Of a stretch of DNA of 64,000 nt, positions 26,799 to 33,230 are shown piece by piece. A program made the translations under genes and the position numbers. Location of the stretch: contig JAABSX010000001.1 of the NCBI GenBank assembly GCA_011390205.1, forward strand, positions 1-64,000, in the 5' to 3' direction. This DNA is from Microscillaceae bacterium (GTDB lineage Bacteria > Bacteroidota > Bacteroidia > Cytophagales > Microscillaceae). The notes below the pieces were generated by a model. The model was not told the origin of the DNA. It ran no database searches and worked only from the letters and a program-made list of their open reading frames with translations. Numbering within the stretch: position 1 is the first letter of the stretch; every line of letters begins with the position of its first letter.

Positions 26799-28676
26799 CT
26801 AAATAAACTCCGCCAACTCTAACCATCGGTCTGTTTTTTGTTCTATTTCTGAAATAATTTTACCCAGAGCCTCTGCTTTTTCTTGTAAATCTTGGTGCGA
26901 TAGATTCTGTACAGACATTTCTTTGGTCAGGTCTTCTTTTTTGCCTTCAAGCTGTTCTATTTCCTTTTCTAGCTTCTGATATTCTTGTTGTTCTTTGTAA
27001 GACAATTTTCTTTTCTCAGTGTCTGTATTTTTTGGTTTTACAGGTTCTTTGCTTGGTACAGGCGTTTCTTTTTTGGGTTTTTTGGCTTGCTCTTCTTCGT
27101 AGGCTTTCAAGATTCGGTATTCATCATACCTTCCATTAAAATCTCTAATCACACCTTCTCCCTCAAAAATCAATAAGTGATCCACCAGTTTATCCAAGAA
27201 AAACCTATCGTGGGTAACCACTACCAAGCAGCCCCCAAAATCTTGCAAGAAATCTTCTAAGATATTGAGTGTCAGGATGTCTAGGTCATTGGTAGGTTCA
27301 TCTAAAATCAAGAAATTGGGCTGTTGCATCAAGACAGTGAGCAGATAAAGCCTGCGTTTTTCGCCACCGCTGAGGGTAGAGACATACTTGTATTGCACTT
27401 TTCTATCAAACAAAAACCGCTCAAGGAGTTGGGTAGCCGAAACCTCTTGTCCGTTTTCCATTTTGGCAAATTCGGCAATGTCTTGGATGACCTCGACCAC
27501 ACGTTTGTCTTCTGGCAGTTTAAGCCCATCTTGGCGATAATAGCCATAAGAGACCGTTTCACCTTTGATGATTTCGCCTGAGTCGGGTTTGATTTGCTCA
27601 GTGAGCAGGTTTAGAAAAGTAGATTTTCCTACGCCATTTTTGCCCACAATACCCACTCTTTCTTGTCTTTTGAAGACATAATCAAAATCTTTGAGGATGG
27701 GTAAATCTTCATACCCTTTAGAAACTTTGTGCATTTCTAAGATTTTTTTGCCGAGGCGTTGCATCTGTACGCCCATTTGCAGCTCTTTGCTTTGTGTGTT
27801 TTTAGAAGCCTCTTTTTTGATTTCTTCAAAAGCATCCAATCTATATTTTGCTTTTGTGCCCCTTGCCTTGGGCTGTCGGCGAACCCAATCAAGCTCTTTT
27901 CGCATCAGGTTGCGGGCTTTTTCTACGGTTTGGGTTTCGTTGGAGGCACGTTCTTCTTTTTTTTCTAAGAAAAGAGAGTAGTTGCCAGGGTAATGATAAA
28001 GATTGCCCTCATCTAGCTCTATGATTTGGTTACAGACCCTTTCTAAAAAGTACCTATCGTGCGTTACCATGAAAAGTGTACGGTTATTTTGCCCGAGGTA
28101 CTCTTCAAGCCACTCAATCATATCTAGGTCAAGATGGTTGGTAGGCTCATCTAAGATTAAAAAATCAGGCTCATCGATGAGCAATTGTGCTAGAGCGACT
28201 CGCTTGCGTTGTCCTCCTGAGAGCGTATGCACATCTTGCCCGAGTTTACCTACCTCAAAGCGCGTCAAAATCTGATTGATGCGGGTTTCATAGTCCCAAG
28301 CCTTGTGATTGTCCATTTCTACAAGGGCTTTTTCCATCATCTCGTGGTCATCAGGATTTTCTAGGGCTTCACTATATAGCCTCACAGCACTCAGGATAGG
28401 ATTATCAGACTGTAAGACGGCCTCACCCACGGTTTTGACTCCATCAAATTTGGGGTCTTGGTTTAGGAAGCCAACTCTGATGCCGTTTCGGAAGCTAAAC
28501 TCACCTGAGTCTGCTATTTCGTAGCCCATTAGTATGCGCATAAGGGTAGATTTGCCGCTGCCATTTTTGGCAACAAGGGCTACTTTTTCACCTTTTTGGA
28601 TGCCAAAGCTGATGTCTTTAAAGAGTGTTTTGTCGCCGTAAGACTTACTAAGCGTTTCTATGGAGAGGTAATTCAT
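26799..28676 (-). CDS. uup: ABC-F ATPase, Uup type
   Basis: A 625-residue soluble protein with two ABC domains and no membrane segment. Walker A sites are AKNGSGKST (~35) and GKNGVGKST (~345). Signatures LSGGQRKRVAL and LSGGEKRRLYL are each followed by LDEPTNHLD / LDEPTNDLD. An ABC-F interdomain linker follows the first domain. The C-terminal ~80 residues (from about 545) form a charged coiled coil, as in Uup. ABC-F proteins act on ribosomes; Uup has a role in translation/ribosome assembly and DNA structure tolerance. It sits upstream of argD and downstream of a terminator. Confidence 0.9.
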   Translation of the reverse strand: MNYLSIETLSKSYGDKTLFKDISFGIQKGEKVALVAKNGSGKSTLMRILMGYEIADSGEFSFRNGIRVGFLNQDPKFDGVKTVGEAVLQSDNPILSAVRLYSEALENPDDHEMMEKALVEMDNHKAWDYETRINQILTRFEVGKLGQDVHTLSGGQRKRVALAQLLIDEPDFLILDEPTNHLDLDMIEWLEEYLGQNNRTLFMVTHDRYFLERVCNQIIELDEGNLYHYPGNYSLFLEKKEERASNETQTVEKARNLMRKELDWVRRQPKARGTKAKYRLDAFEEIKKEASKNTQSKELQMGVQMQRLGKKILEMHKVSKGYEDLPILKDFDYVFKRQERVGIVGKNGVGKSTFLNLLTEQIKPDSGEIIKGETVSYGYYRQDGLKLPEDKRVVEVIQDIAEFAKMENGQEVSATQLLERFLFDRKVQYKYVSTLSGGEKRRLYLLTVLMQQPNFLILDEPTNDLDILTLNILEDFLQDFGGCLVVVTHDRFFLDKLVDHLLIFEGEGVIRDFNGRYDEYRILKAYEEEQAKKPKKETPVPSKEPVKPKNTDTEKRKLSYKEQQEYQKLEKEIEQLEGKKEDLTKEMSVQNLSHQDLQEKAEALGKIISEIEQKTDRWLELAEFI

Positions 28677-28794
28677 TCCGTTTTTTGGGGTTTTTGCTTA
28701 TCTAATGAGTTGCAAATTTAAGCTAAGTTGTGTGTTATTTTTAATACTCTGAGAGATTTTATTGAGATTCTGCTTGAGTTAGAAAGTGTGTGTG

Positions 28795-28844
28795 TATAAA
28801 AAACCTCCACAGCAAAACTTTTGGGAGAATTACTGTGGAGGTTT
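28795..28844 (-). terminator. Rho-independent terminator of the TonB-like gene
   Basis: A perfect 12-bp stem (AAACCTCCACAG at 28801-28812 with its complement at 28833-28844). On the minus strand it is followed by T residues. It lies just beyond the stop at 28879 and 120 nt before the ABC-F start. Confidence 0.85.
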
Positions 28845-28878
28845 ATGGAATTGCTCTGAGAAGGCGTTTTTTTATATT

Positions 28879-29280
28879 TTATCTTACTTGGATAGACATT
28901 GTTTTTTGAACCCTTACCTTTTTGCCTTTTTGGACACCTGGAATCCATTTAGGAGAATTTTCAAGGAGTTTTACGACTTCTTCATCGCAGCCGCTTCCGA
29001 TGCCTTTGATTACCTTGATATTGCTCAGGCTTCCGTTTTTTTCTACGATAAACTGCACGAACACATTTCCTCTCACACCTTTGCTGATGGCTTCTTTGGG
29101 TCTTTTTAGATTGTCTTGGGTATATTCATAAAACGCATACATGCCGCCCTCTGGTTTTGGGGGCTGCTCTGTCATTTTGTAAATCATCTCAGGAGCTACA
29201 GAAGCGATTTGTGCTTCTGATACGTTTTGTGTACTGATGAATATGATAATAAATAAAAGTAGTTTTAAAAATTCGCCCAT
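28879..29280 (-). CDS. Small exported TonB C-terminal domain protein
   Basis: A 133-residue protein. Residues 1-24 look like a signal peptide (FLKLLLFIIIFISTQ then SEAQ). The remainder is a TonB C-terminal fold: GVRGNVFVQFIVEKNGSLSN, VIKGIGSGCDEEVVKLLE, then WIPGVQKGKKVRV. It lacks the long Pro-rich periplasmic spacer and cytoplasmic tail of a full TonB. It is therefore probably a free periplasmic or lipid-proximal TonB-like domain, common in Bacteroidota. No exbB/exbD or TonB-dependent receptor is adjacent. Confidence 0.85.
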   Translation of the reverse strand: MGEFLKLLLFIIIFISTQNVSEAQIASVAPEMIYKMTEQPPKPEGGMYAFYEYTQDNLKRPKEAISKGVRGNVFVQFIVEKNGSLSNIKVIKGIGSGCDEEVVKLLENSPKWIPGVQKGKKVRVQKTMSIQVR

Positions 29281-29637
29281 GGTATTTTTATGTTTTAATT
29301 TACTTTGTTATCTTTTTTCTTTGAGAGGAGGCAGATGCATCACTTATTAAACTGTAAAATTATGTGTTAATAGAAGAATAAACAAGTTTTAACGATAAAT
29401 TCATATACTTTCGTAAACAAAAAAAAGATAATTACGTTCTAATTATTCTTCTTTTTACTGTTCTATTAAGGCGAAAATCTTTCAATGTCAGATTTTTGAA
29501 CAGATACACTTTTTTATTATCTTCATTACTTTTGTAGGATTACCCAATATTTTTTGGAGTGTACCTAAATGCATGACTGTTAGGCAGCCATCGGGTCACT
29601 AAATTATTAAAGTAAGGAAGCCAATCTGTTATAAGCC
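29281..29637. other. Spacer between TonB-like and PtuB-like genes
   Basis: A very AT-rich 357-bp region. It contains an imperfect inverted repeat: TTAATAGAAGAATAA near 29367-29381 against ATTATTCTTC...GTTCTATTAA near 29443-29468. It also contains an A8 run near 29420. No open frame looks coding. It should hold the TonB-like gene's promoter and the end of the PtuB-like transcript. I do not see a retron-type ncRNA layout. Confidence 0.45.
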
Positions 29638-30324
29638 CTAAGAAAGTGTTTCGAGGTAGTGTATGACTACTTCATTAAATCGGCGGTATTTTCCTGTTTT
29701 GGGGTCTCTGCGTTTTAAGCTTTCTATTATTTTTTGTATTTGTGTTTTGCTCATTTTGCGCACATTGCTTAGTACCTCATTGAAGATAATCTTTCTTTGT
29801 TCTTTAAGTCTATCTGCATTGAGGTTCAGAATATCAATTGTACTCATGAGCATTTGCTGTTCGGGGCTTAGTTTTCGGTAGTTATCGTGGCATTTCTTGA
29901 CCGTTCGGTAGTTGCCAGTGCCTGCGGGGATAATCTCGCCAAGGGTATTGTATCTAAAATAGCTTGGGCATCTGTAATCATGCAGATAATTAGGGATGAC
30001 TGTATCTTTTTTGGCAAGGTATCCTACTTTATAATCGGGGGGCAGTGATTCGGGTTGTCTGAGTGCAAGGTATAGATTTCTGTAATCTAGCTCTAAATAA
30101 GCAAAATGCTCTGCGGGGTAGAAATGCACGAGTACTGCAGTTTCGGCAGTGATTTCATCAAGGGTATAGCAACACAAGAAGCCTTGGTCGGTCAGGAGTT
30201 GATTGACGATGTCAGTCCAGACATTGACGGGCAGGTTATGAAATCTGGGTTTATAATCTGTGTATTTCAGATTTTTCAGTTTGGTAAGAGACTGAGGTTC
30301 TGGATTTTTTTCGATATATTTCAT
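29638..30324 (-). CDS. PtuB-like (TIGR02646) protein with degenerate HNH site
   Basis: A 228-residue protein from the ATG at 30324 (MKYIEKNPEP); a second ATG at 30342 adds six residues. The family layout is present: an N-terminal helix, an HNH core GFLCCYTLDEI / LVHFYPAEHF / LDYRNLY, then CPSYFRYNTLGEIIPAGTG, and the C-terminal IDILNLNADRLKEQR. PtuB-type members normally carry CAYC, IEHFxP, NLxxxC and a later Cys/His. Here CxxC became CCYT, EHF became VHF, and the NLxxxC Cys is Leu. The single His (73) and Asn (89) remain. Metal binding, hence nuclease activity, is doubtful. It follows the ATPase gene by ~115 nt on the same strand. The Septu assignment is by architecture and remembered family features. 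Confidence 0.65.
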   Translation of the reverse strand: MKYIEKNPEPQSLTKLKNLKYTDYKPRFHNLPVNVWTDIVNQLLTDQGFLCCYTLDEITAETAVLVHFYPAEHFAYLELDYRNLYLALRQPESLPPDYKVGYLAKKDTVIPNYLHDYRCPSYFRYNTLGEIIPAGTGNYRTVKKCHDNYRKLSPEQQMLMSTIDILNLNADRLKEQRKIIFNEVLSNVRKMSKTQIQKIIESLKRRDPKTGKYRRFNEVVIHYLETLS

Positions 30325-30438
30325 CTTAATCTTACAAATCAAATAGACTTAGGTGTACATTTTATTTAAAACCATCAAAGGAGAGTGCACTTGTTTTTTG
30401 TCAGAGTGTTGTATTGCTCGGTATGTTTGCAGTTTTTT

Positions 30439-31671
30439 TTAAAGATAAAAGTGAAGCAGTGTATCAGCCCTGATGAGTTCGGGGTCTCCTTTGCCGATGC
30501 GTTCATCTAATTTTTCACGGATACTGAGTGCCTCTTCGGAGTGTCCTTCTCCATTTTCTATGAGTTCAAAATATTCTTCTAGCATGGCTTGGATATCGTC
30601 TAATCTTTCGGTGGTATCCATTGCATTTCTGAGCACGTGGTCGGCGGTGCGTCCGTAGATATTTTCGAGATAGTAGGCATTTCCTTTTCTCATGGTGATG
30701 ATTCGGTCTTGGACACTGCTCAGGATAAGTGGGGAGTGTGTGGTTACGATAAACTGAATCTTAGGAAAAGTAGATTTAAGGCCTGAGACCACCTTTTTTT
30801 GCCAAGAGGGATGTAAGTGCAGGTCTAGCTCATCGATGAGTACGACTCCTGTGGTCTTTTCGGCGGCTTCGTGCTTGTGTTGAGGGTTCAGTACTGCACA
30901 TCTGAATGCAATATCAGCCACCATGGCCAGCATATTTCTGACTCCATCACTGAGGTATTTAAAAGGTAATTTTCGTCCATCATTAAACTCCATCACTAGC
31001 TCACGGCGGTTATAATCAAAATAAAGGTTATCACAATCTTCTATGGCATTACTCACTGCCTTTCTGACTACTTGCAGCCCTGCGGAGTCTTTGCGTTGCT
31101 GAAGCACTACCATTTCTTCTTTTTCAAACCACTTCGTAAAAAATTTATTGTTAGAAGTAGCTTTCAGTCCATTGTAGTAGCCATCTTGCAATCGGGAGCC
31201 TGTCAGTTTAGAGGTATCTGGGCGTTCTTTCCAGAGTCTTTCGGTAGAGTAATATGCGATGACGGGCAGGTCTATGGTTTCCCCTGCCCTTATTTGCTCT
31301 TGCATTCCTTTTGCCAGATTTTTTACATTTATGGCATTGACGTAGGTAGTCTTGTTTTTGGGGCCAGTGAGTTCACGGGTCCAGTTAAGTTCTTCTCCTT
31401 GGATTTCTCCCCAGGCTTCTATTTCTACGGGAAACTGCTCATTGATGTCATATTCAGAGTTTACGACCCTAATATCTTCTGAACGGATGTGCCTTGTTTC
31501 TGCATAGTCTATACCCAAAAAAAACGAACCCATGGCGATGGTGAGTGCCTCTAGCACGGCAGTTTTGCCTACTCCATTGCTGCCTATCACAATGTTAAAA
31601 TTAGGATGAAATTCTATTTCTGTGGCCGCATAAGCACGGAAATTTTTTAATCTTAGTTTATCGATGCGCAT
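30439..31671 (-). CDS. PtuA-like AAA/SMC-type ATPase (COG3950)
   Basis: A 410-residue soluble ATPase of the RecF/SMC/OLD group. Walker A is GSNGVGKT (30-37). The signature-like YLSDGVRNMLAMVADIAF is at 239-256, Walker B VVLIDELDLHLHP at 276-288, and the H-switch TTHSP at 310-314. The insert between them is short, with no long coiled coil, so it is not an SMC or RecN. These features match the PtuA ATPases of Septu and retron-Ec78-type systems, which pair with an HNH protein encoded next door, as here. No reverse transcriptase is nearby. In known Septu, PtuA oligomers hold PtuB and nucleotide depletion or phage cues release nuclease. A DNA-repair role is the alternative. Confidence 0.75.
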   Translation of the reverse strand: MRIDKLRLKNFRAYAATEIEFHPNFNIVIGSNGVGKTAVLEALTIAMGSFFLGIDYAETRHIRSEDIRVVNSEYDINEQFPVEIEAWGEIQGEELNWTRELTGPKNKTTYVNAINVKNLAKGMQEQIRAGETIDLPVIAYYSTERLWKERPDTSKLTGSRLQDGYYNGLKATSNNKFFTKWFEKEEMVVLQQRKDSAGLQVVRKAVSNAIEDCDNLYFDYNRRELVMEFNDGRKLPFKYLSDGVRNMLAMVADIAFRCAVLNPQHKHEAAEKTTGVVLIDELDLHLHPSWQKKVVSGLKSTFPKIQFIVTTHSPLILSSVQDRIITMRKGNAYYLENIYGRTADHVLRNAMDTTERLDDIQAMLEEYFELIENGEGHSEEALSIREKLDERIGKGDPELIRADTLLHFYL

Positions 31672-31736
31672 ATTGTATGTTTGATAATGATTTTTTATAG
31701 TAAGTAGTAAAAAACGCTTTAGCTTAGCAATATAGC

Positions 31737-32204
31737 CTAAGACATAATTCCCAAAAGTAATAAAACAAGCCCTGCGACGAGCCCTAGCCCTCCTATTGCC
31801 AGAAAACTAACATAAAGCCCTACATTGAGGGATAATACGAGCAAAACAAGGCCCAAAACTATGCAAAAAAGACCTCCCACGATACATACGATTCCGTAGG
31901 TAGCAAGGTCATTCTGTATTTTTTGAATTTTGGCTACTTTGTCTGTTTTTCCTTTTTCAATCCAGTGATTTTTTCGTTTTTCGAGTTTGAATTGTTTTCT
32001 ATTGATTTTTCTTTCTAGTTTCTTAAGATACCATTTGCCTATTTTAGAGTGTAGAAAATTCTCTAACTGGGCTTTTTTCTTGGTTTTTGAAGAAGAAACA
32101 ACATTTATATCAGCGCTAGGTGTGAGGGTATTTGCCTCTGATGAAGATACAAATAATACCAGACTTATACAAATGAGGAGGGTTTTTAGAGTGTATATTT
32201 CCAT
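31737..32204 (-). CDS. Small exported membrane protein, function unknown
   Basis: A 155-residue protein. Residues 1-24 look like a signal peptide or first helix (LLICISLVLFVSSSEA). Residues ~40-95 are strongly basic and helical (YLKKLERKINRKQFKLEKRK). Two hydrophobic helices end the protein at about 104-125 and 130-153, rich in Gly/Leu/Val. No family recognised. It lies 65 nt upstream of the PtuA-like gene and 33 nt downstream of trpD, all on the same strand, so it could be co-transcribed with either. Confidence 0.65.
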   Translation of the reverse strand: MEIYTLKTLLICISLVLFVSSSEANTLTPSADINVVSSSKTKKKAQLENFLHSKIGKWYLKKLERKINRKQFKLEKRKNHWIEKGKTDKVAKIQKIQNDLATYGIVCIVGGLFCIVLGLVLLVLSLNVGLYVSFLAIGGLGLVAGLVLLLLGIMS

Positions 32205-32237
32205 GATAGATACATTTATGGCTTGATGTAAATATAA

Positions 32238-33230
32238 TTAATTCAGACGTAAAAATTTCTCAAAAGTAGTCAAAGCTTTGCCAGATTTTAGGGTTTCTTT
32301 GGCGAGTGCCATACAATCTTGGCGGCTCAAGGCAGGTTTTGCACAGTGAATCGCCATGCCTGCATTGGCACAGACTACATCTTGCTGTGCTTCTGTGCCT
32401 TCTCCCCGAAGGATTTTTTCAAATACCTTGGCAGAGTCTGCTACAGTATCTCCTCCAAACAGCGCCTCTGGGTTCAGGGTCTTGAAGCCGAGGTCTTGTG
32501 GCGAGAGAAGGCTGTCTTCTTGGTTGGAGAGTAGTTTAAAACTACTTGTGAGTGAGATTTCATCATAGCCATCTAGAGTGTGTAAGATTGCATATTGTTT
32601 GTTGGTTTTTTGGTAAAGGTAGTTATAGAGGCGTGCCAGTTCAAGATTAAAGACACCCACAAGCTGTATCTCAGGGAAAGCTGGGTTTACCATAGGCCCT
32701 AGCATGTTAAAAAAGGTTTTTACGCCAAGTTCTTTGCGAATCGGGGCGACATTCTTCATGGCAGGGTGGAAGAGGGGGGCGTGTAAGAAACAAAGCCCTG
32801 TCTCAGCAATCATTTTTTCTAAGCTTTGTGGGTCATTGGTAAATTTAGCTCCAAAATACTCCAAGACTGTAGAAGAGCCTGAGATAGAAGAAACGCCATG
32901 GTTGCCGTGTTTGGCTACATTGACCCCGCTGCCCGCTACCACAAAGCAGGCAAGTGTAGAGATATTGAAAGTGTCTTTGCCATCACCTCCTGTACCGCAG
33001 ACATCCATGGGCTTGTATGCCTTCAAATCTATGCCTACGCACAAATCAAGCATGGCATCTCGGAATCCTTCTAACTCTTCTACGGTGATACTTCTCATGA
33101 TATATACCGTAAGGAATGAAGCAATCTGGGAGGGGTTGTATTTTCCTAAGGCTATATTTTTGAGGATTTCAGTGGCTTCGCTTTTGTTGAGTGTTTTGTG
33201 CTCAAATAAGTGGTTTAAGACTTCTTTCAT
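32238..33230 (-). CDS. trpD: Anthranilate phosphoribosyltransferase
   Basis: Tryptophan biosynthesis: couples anthranilate to PRPP. It has 330 residues, the usual size. Motifs: PRPP-binding VCGTGGDGKDTFNIST (~80-95), VAKHGNHGVSSISGS, and the anthranilate-contact region MKNVAPIRKELGVKTFFNML. The KHGN and GVSSxSGS segments are typical of Bacteroidota TrpD. No other trp gene is in the window, so it is detached from, or at the end of, a trp operon lying elsewhere. Confidence 0.95.
   Translation of the reverse strand: MKEVLNHLFEHKTLNKSEATEILKNIALGKYNPSQIASFLTVYIMRSITVEELEGFRDAMLDLCVGIDLKAYKPMDVCGTGGDGKDTFNISTLACFVVAGSGVNVAKHGNHGVSSISGSSTVLEYFGAKFTNDPQSLEKMIAETGLCFLHAPLFHPAMKNVAPIRKELGVKTFFNMLGPMVNPAFPEIQLVGVFNLELARLYNYLYQKTNKQYAILHTLDGYDEISLTSSFKLLSNQEDSLLSPQDLGFKTLNPEALFGGDTVADSAKVFEKILRGEGTEAQQDVVCANAGMAIHCAKPALSRQDCMALAKETLKSGKALTTFEKFLRLN

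Follow-up and report, generated by a model that had tools for sequence, protein, structure and literature searches.

Related systems

Septu systems pair a PtuA-family ATPase, in which Walker A, Walker B, signature and H-loop are intact, with an adjacent PtuB-family protein which carries an HNH site (E/D-H ... N). The Septu of Escherichia coli has been solved (8ee4, 8ee7 and 8eea): Its PtuB retains E-H-N and lacks the zinc cysteines (CCYS, NLAASAL). PtuAB of the type I-A retrons Ec78 and Ec83 (TIGR02646/NF041761) belong to the same protein families and have the same fold. In ptuXYZ-type loci a PtuA-like ATPase is found with a non-canonical partner, as in our case, but those partners are unrelated to PtuB, while in our locus it is PtuB that accompanies the ATPase, its site being apparently dead (PMC11980606). 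Loss of a nuclease activity in a protein which is kept is known elsewhere: PMC8097288 describes fungal Dis3/RNase II proteins, where activity has been lost repeatedly and the protein retained as an RNA binder, an evolutionary analogy only, as fold and organism are unrelated. Our literature search, for which most subscription papers were out of reach, turned up no PtuB described as catalytically dead.

The locus we describe lies in a window (the whole stretch of DNA analyzed) of 64,000 nt from a genome, G000, of the Microscillaceae, a family of gliding bacteria. It resembles E. coli Septu in its homologous ATPase, its HNH-fold partner, its gene order, the lack of a reverse transcriptase and the lack of zinc cysteines in PtuB. 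It differs from it in that the PtuBs of its clade have all lost the Glu and in part the His of the active site, the genes do not overlap and the pair is vertically inherited.

The ptuA and ptuB genes

Both genes are real open reading frames on the minus strand, adjacent and co-directional, as the earlier note had read them. The first, ptuA (30439-31671), codes for a 410 amino acid SMC/ABC-type ATPase with all its catalytic motifs intact. The second, ptuB (29638-30324), codes for a 228 amino acid HNH-fold protein with a degenerate active site; it starts with ATG at 30324, although an upstream TTG at 30342 could lengthen the frame. The gap between the ptuA stop and the ptuB start (30325-30438, minus strand) has 114 nt.

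The proposed PtuA-like ATPase is borne out: The protein matches the PADLOC PtuA profile (E=5.6e-144), it also matches the E. coli PtuA structure 8ee4 (E=5e-58), and it contains Walker A, LSDGVR, Walker B and THSP. These motifs are retained in nine PtuA family members, and the PtuAs of the clade, found in nine Microscillaceae genomes, are 64-83% identical.

PtuB matches the PADLOC PtuB profile (E=9e-34). Its assignment to TIGR02646 holds only in part: It matches the model (E=3e-10), but its 40.3 bits are under the curated cut-off of 52.15, which the relatives from G003 and G012 do pass. The score with NF041761 (E=1.6e-14, 54.3 bits) is also under the cut-off, 150. A Pfam search with the PtuBs of the clade gave nothing significant. 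An AlphaFold2 model, built with an alignment of its relatives as input, has a pLDDT of 95.7, and its only strong structural matches are PtuB structures, the best one being E. coli Septu PtuB 8eea (TM 0.73). The G006 relative, which lacks both active-site Glu and His, is modelled with a pLDDT of 95.5, from an alignment which includes canonical relatives. The LNLN..LK.QRK region, a feature considered for PtuA-PtuB complex formation, is conserved.

A type I-A retron (Ec78-like) was ruled out: As the earlier note had stated, none of the neighbouring genes codes for a reverse transcriptase, and an Rfam search of 28600-32300 gave no match. The locus also differs from Ec78 and Ec83 in its shorter form of PtuA and in the PtuB scores under the curated cut-offs.

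The two genes usually share 4 nt in canonical loci, an overlap which is absent in this clade. Gaps calculated by hand from the ORF coordinates are about 118 nt in G003, 388 nt in G004, 185 nt in G002 and 54 nt in G011. In one genus, represented by G006 and G014, the genes are unlinked: In G006 they point towards each other at a distance of about 2 kb, separated by genes which by eye are dprA- and yraN-like, and in G014 they are found on different contigs. A gene which by eye codes for a D12-class adenine methyltransferase (L105, 6289-7251) adjoins the unlinked ptuB of G006. In G010 ptuB is frameshifted and ptuA is absent, as expected if PtuB is useless without PtuA, a pattern seen in this one case. 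Frameshifts are also found in ptuA and ptuB of G009, whose rpoB is split as well, so we ascribe them to low coverage.

The genes around the locus are housekeeping genes: branching enzyme, aminotransferase, ABC-F, trpD and alanine dehydrogenase. No third gene is common to the loci, except a gene with a TonB_C domain found in three genera. In the window it lies downstream of ptuB (28879-29280, minus strand); we use it as a synteny marker common to G009, G003 and G012, and do not claim a functional part for it.

Active site of PtuB

The active site was studied in an alignment of 45 PtuBs: that of the window, its seven nearest full-length homologues, all from Microscillaceae and 45-60% identical to it, and an outgroup of 37. 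The motifs listed in the earlier note (CCYT, LVHF, NLYLAL and LNLNADRLKEQR) are exactly those present in the protein. The site triads of His-Me nucleases are D148/H149/N165 in Hpy99I and D839/H840/N863 in Cas9; by analogy, E66 and N83 of PtuB should hold the metal and H67 should act as the base.

Position 66, the presumed metal ligand, is Glu in 36 of the 37 outgroup proteins and Asp in the other one. In the window it is Val (GTG, 30127-30129, minus strand), and either Val or Ile is found in all eight proteins of the clade. Two incomplete relatives have also lost the acidic residue, with Val in the truncated G011 protein and Thr in the frameshifted one of G010. The general base at position 67 is His throughout the outgroup (37/37). 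It is present in the window (CAT, 30124-30126, minus strand) and in four more members of the clade, while two have Pro and one has Gln. Asn83 (AAT, 30076-30078, minus strand in the window) is unchanged in all eight, perhaps for structural reasons, perhaps as a sign of remaining catalytic activity. One His and one Asn do therefore remain in the window, as previously noted, and the same pair is found in G009, G004, G003 and G012. H100 is missing in the window and in G009, and the window protein has VGY where HC is usual.

Given the composition of positions 66 and 67 in the outgroup, the change of E66 to Val is the unusual one in this protein, and these two positions are the ones that count. The earlier note had called for a check of the degeneracy in close homologues, and none of the seven has the full HNH set. 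Several of the assemblies compared are MAGs; an assembly error behind the degenerate site is ruled out, as eight genomes agree. Since mutation of PtuB H75 or N91 abolishes immunity in a tested Septu (PMC13096335), that mechanism is not expected in the members of the clade without His.

The cysteines, on which the earlier note had put weight, turn out not to be diagnostic. Residues 51-54 (CCYT, 30163-30174, minus strand) occupy the zinc-knuckle position with the second cysteine missing, and within the clade Cys54, Cys88 and Cys101 are missing only in the window and G009. Nevertheless, Cys54 is also absent in three canonical PtuBs with E-H (L030, L037 and L071) and in one with D-H (L042), and the solved E. 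coli PtuB has no zinc cysteines either. Their loss recurs in PtuBs that retain E-H, which rules it out as the key change. Next to the zinc knuckle there is a clade-specific charge reversal: Glu57 (30154-30156) is found in all eight members and in 3 of the 37 others, most of which have Arg.

Selection and inheritance

The eight PtuBs form a single clade (support 100/96), whose sister is a canonical PtuB, L012, also from a Microscillaceae genome. The tree requires a single loss of E66, two changes of H67, both later than this loss, and three changes of Cys54. The loss of E66 spans at least seven genera.

Selection was measured in pairs of genomes from two genera. For ptuB, dN/dS is 0.040 in G003/G012 (95% bootstrap interval 0.010-0.086) and 0.043 in G006/G014 (0.021-0.072), a pair which has neither E66 nor H67. 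The values for ptuA are 0.000 in G003/G012, with no amino acid change in 412 codons and 34 synonymous differences, and 0.084 in G006/G014. Eleven neighbour genes of the G003/G012 locus have values from 0.055 to 0.342. The low ptuB values, which include those of the pair without Glu and His, indicate that PtuB is maintained without its catalytic residues.

Relatives of PtuB are found in 10 of the 15 Microscillaceae genomes, and the named matches place the clade in this family (Microscillaceae, Cytophagales and Bacteroidetes MAGs, and Microscilla sp.). A comparison with 375 further genomes of the order gave no PtuA more than 41% identical to those of the clade: Outside Microscillaceae the best are 36-39% identical, and the other PtuA copies inside the family reach 41% in this comparison. 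Distances between PtuAs parallel those between RpoBs (Spearman 0.92, from 28 non-independent pairs); the agreement is looser for PtuB (Spearman 0.23, Pearson 0.71). The pair is mostly vertically inherited, as follows from its confinement to one family, the PtuA and RpoB distances and the ptuA-ptuB-TonB_C gene order common to G000, G009, G003 and G012.

Mobile defence systems are recognized by patchy spread, carriage by plasmids or phages and an island context. None of these features is found here: The clade is limited to one family, the phage records and viral contigs searched contain no relatives, a plasmid search gave only relatives at 24-36%, and the neighbours are housekeeping genes.

Proposed function and alternatives

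The locus is a real and conserved Septu variant and not a decaying copy. It belongs to Septu by family, since it has the ATPase and an adjacent protein with the PtuB fold. Its status by function is left in doubt, as the HNH site, a defining feature, is lacking: Glu is replaced in the window and in the whole clade, and H67 is gone in three of the eight members. Ancient loss of the cutting site in a pair which is still under strong selection suggests that the system now works without cutting. To judge from the sequences, we are probably dealing with a Septu-derived pair which is vertically inherited, with an active-looking ATPase and a PtuB which is a non-cutting pseudonuclease.

A Microscillaceae ancestor would have derived the pair from a canonical Septu. 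PtuA, with its ATPase motifs intact, evolves slowly. PtuB has lost the acidic ligand of its HNH site once and then the catalytic His twice, keeping its fold. As a pseudonuclease, PtuB would still bind PtuA by way of its C-terminal half, which is conserved, and perhaps nucleic acid as well, and may now serve in recognition or regulation as a subunit which does not cut. Binding and release could be driven by ATP turnover in PtuA, and the complex would be an ATP-dependent binding or sensing machine, by which a nucleic-acid substrate is held, blocked or passed on without being cut. We also suggest, more tentatively, that Septu has been domesticated in at least seven Microscillaceae genera: It would have become an ATPase complex which is vertically inherited, does not cut, has a pseudonuclease as a subunit and plays a cellular role, possibly in DNA transactions, tRNA binding or regulation. 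The earlier note had proposed a Septu variant with altered effector chemistry: The variant is confirmed, but the word effector presumes a role in defence, which vertical inheritance across the family and the housekeeping neighbourhood make less certain.

The main rival explanation is that some members of the clade have a PtuB which still acts as a nuclease, where H67, N83 and an acidic ligand at a new position, such as E57, would form a reduced His-Me site. The retention of H67 and N83 in five members and the presence of E57 throughout the clade agree with it, and His and Asn alone are close to the minimal site of some His-Me nucleases of the I-PpoI type. We consider it unlikely, as three relatives have Pro or Gln instead of H67 in what is otherwise the same protein, the pair with Pro is under the same selection, a hydrophobic residue replaces E66 in every member, and H100 is also gone in two of them. 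There is a smaller chance that a separate nuclease is recruited in trans, PtuB being a mere adaptor in what would still be a Septu-like killer. The ATPase and its partner are conserved together, and PtuA-type ATPases do pair with quite different effectors, such as those of ptuXYZ (PMC11980606). On the other hand, no third gene is common to the loci apart from the TonB_C gene of three genera, ptuA and ptuB are themselves separated in G006 and G014, and G000 has no second full-length PtuB, the match of TIGR02646 at C101 being weak and partial.

Two other explanations seem to us very improbable. Catalytically dead partners can be dominant-negative, and canonical PtuB-type genes are present in several of the same genomes, so PtuB might be a decoy or antidote which shields the cell from the PtuA of an incoming canonical Septu or retron. 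However, the clade retains a highly conserved PtuA of its own, and other PtuA-like proteins in these genomes share no more than 32-43% identity with it, which makes cross-binding doubtful. Even less probable is a decaying defence system on its way out, one of the two options in the earlier note (non-nuclease effector or decay). It would account for the stepwise loss of active-site residues, the frameshifted ptuB of G010 and the five Microscillaceae genomes (of 15) without a ptuB match. Decay of a single copy is ruled out by the dN/dS values and the clade-wide loss, and decay in general is rejected by a low dN/dS (close to 0.04 in ptuB, no higher than 0.084 in ptuA), by reading frames which are open in most genomes, by the loss of E66 common to at least seven genera and by a fold modelled at high confidence. 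The other option, a non-nuclease role, seems to fit the sequences best.

If PtuB is indeed a non-cutting pseudonuclease, the clade is a natural experiment in which the action of the PtuA ATPase alone can be studied. Since the HNH residues are reported to be essential for Septu immunity, a lineage which is under strong selection without them must have an activity different from the known cleavage. A mobile defence module has apparently been turned into a resident, family-wide gene pair.

Other PtuA- and PtuB-like genes

Other genes of these families were found in our searches. Another contig of G000 (L140, G000:C2, 578-5637) contains cas2, cas1 and a RAMP-superfamily gene, a type III CRISPR-like arrangement. 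They are followed by a gene for a 600 amino acid PtuA-like AAA ATPase, about 43% identical to PtuA over 136 residues, and by an ORF without Pfam match, after which the contig ends. In G003 there is a PtuB-like gene (L016, G003:C33, 1474-2259) with the canonical E-H and an insert of about 45 amino acids between the Asn and HC parts of its HNH site; the insert is LysM-like by eye, with no Pfam match. In five genomes (L017, L018, L019, L021 and L022) the match to the best PADLOC PtuB model crosses a TGA, which may simply be the true stop. Finally, a single 746 amino acid frame in G112 (L046, 1429-3666) holds both PtuB-like and PtuA-like parts.
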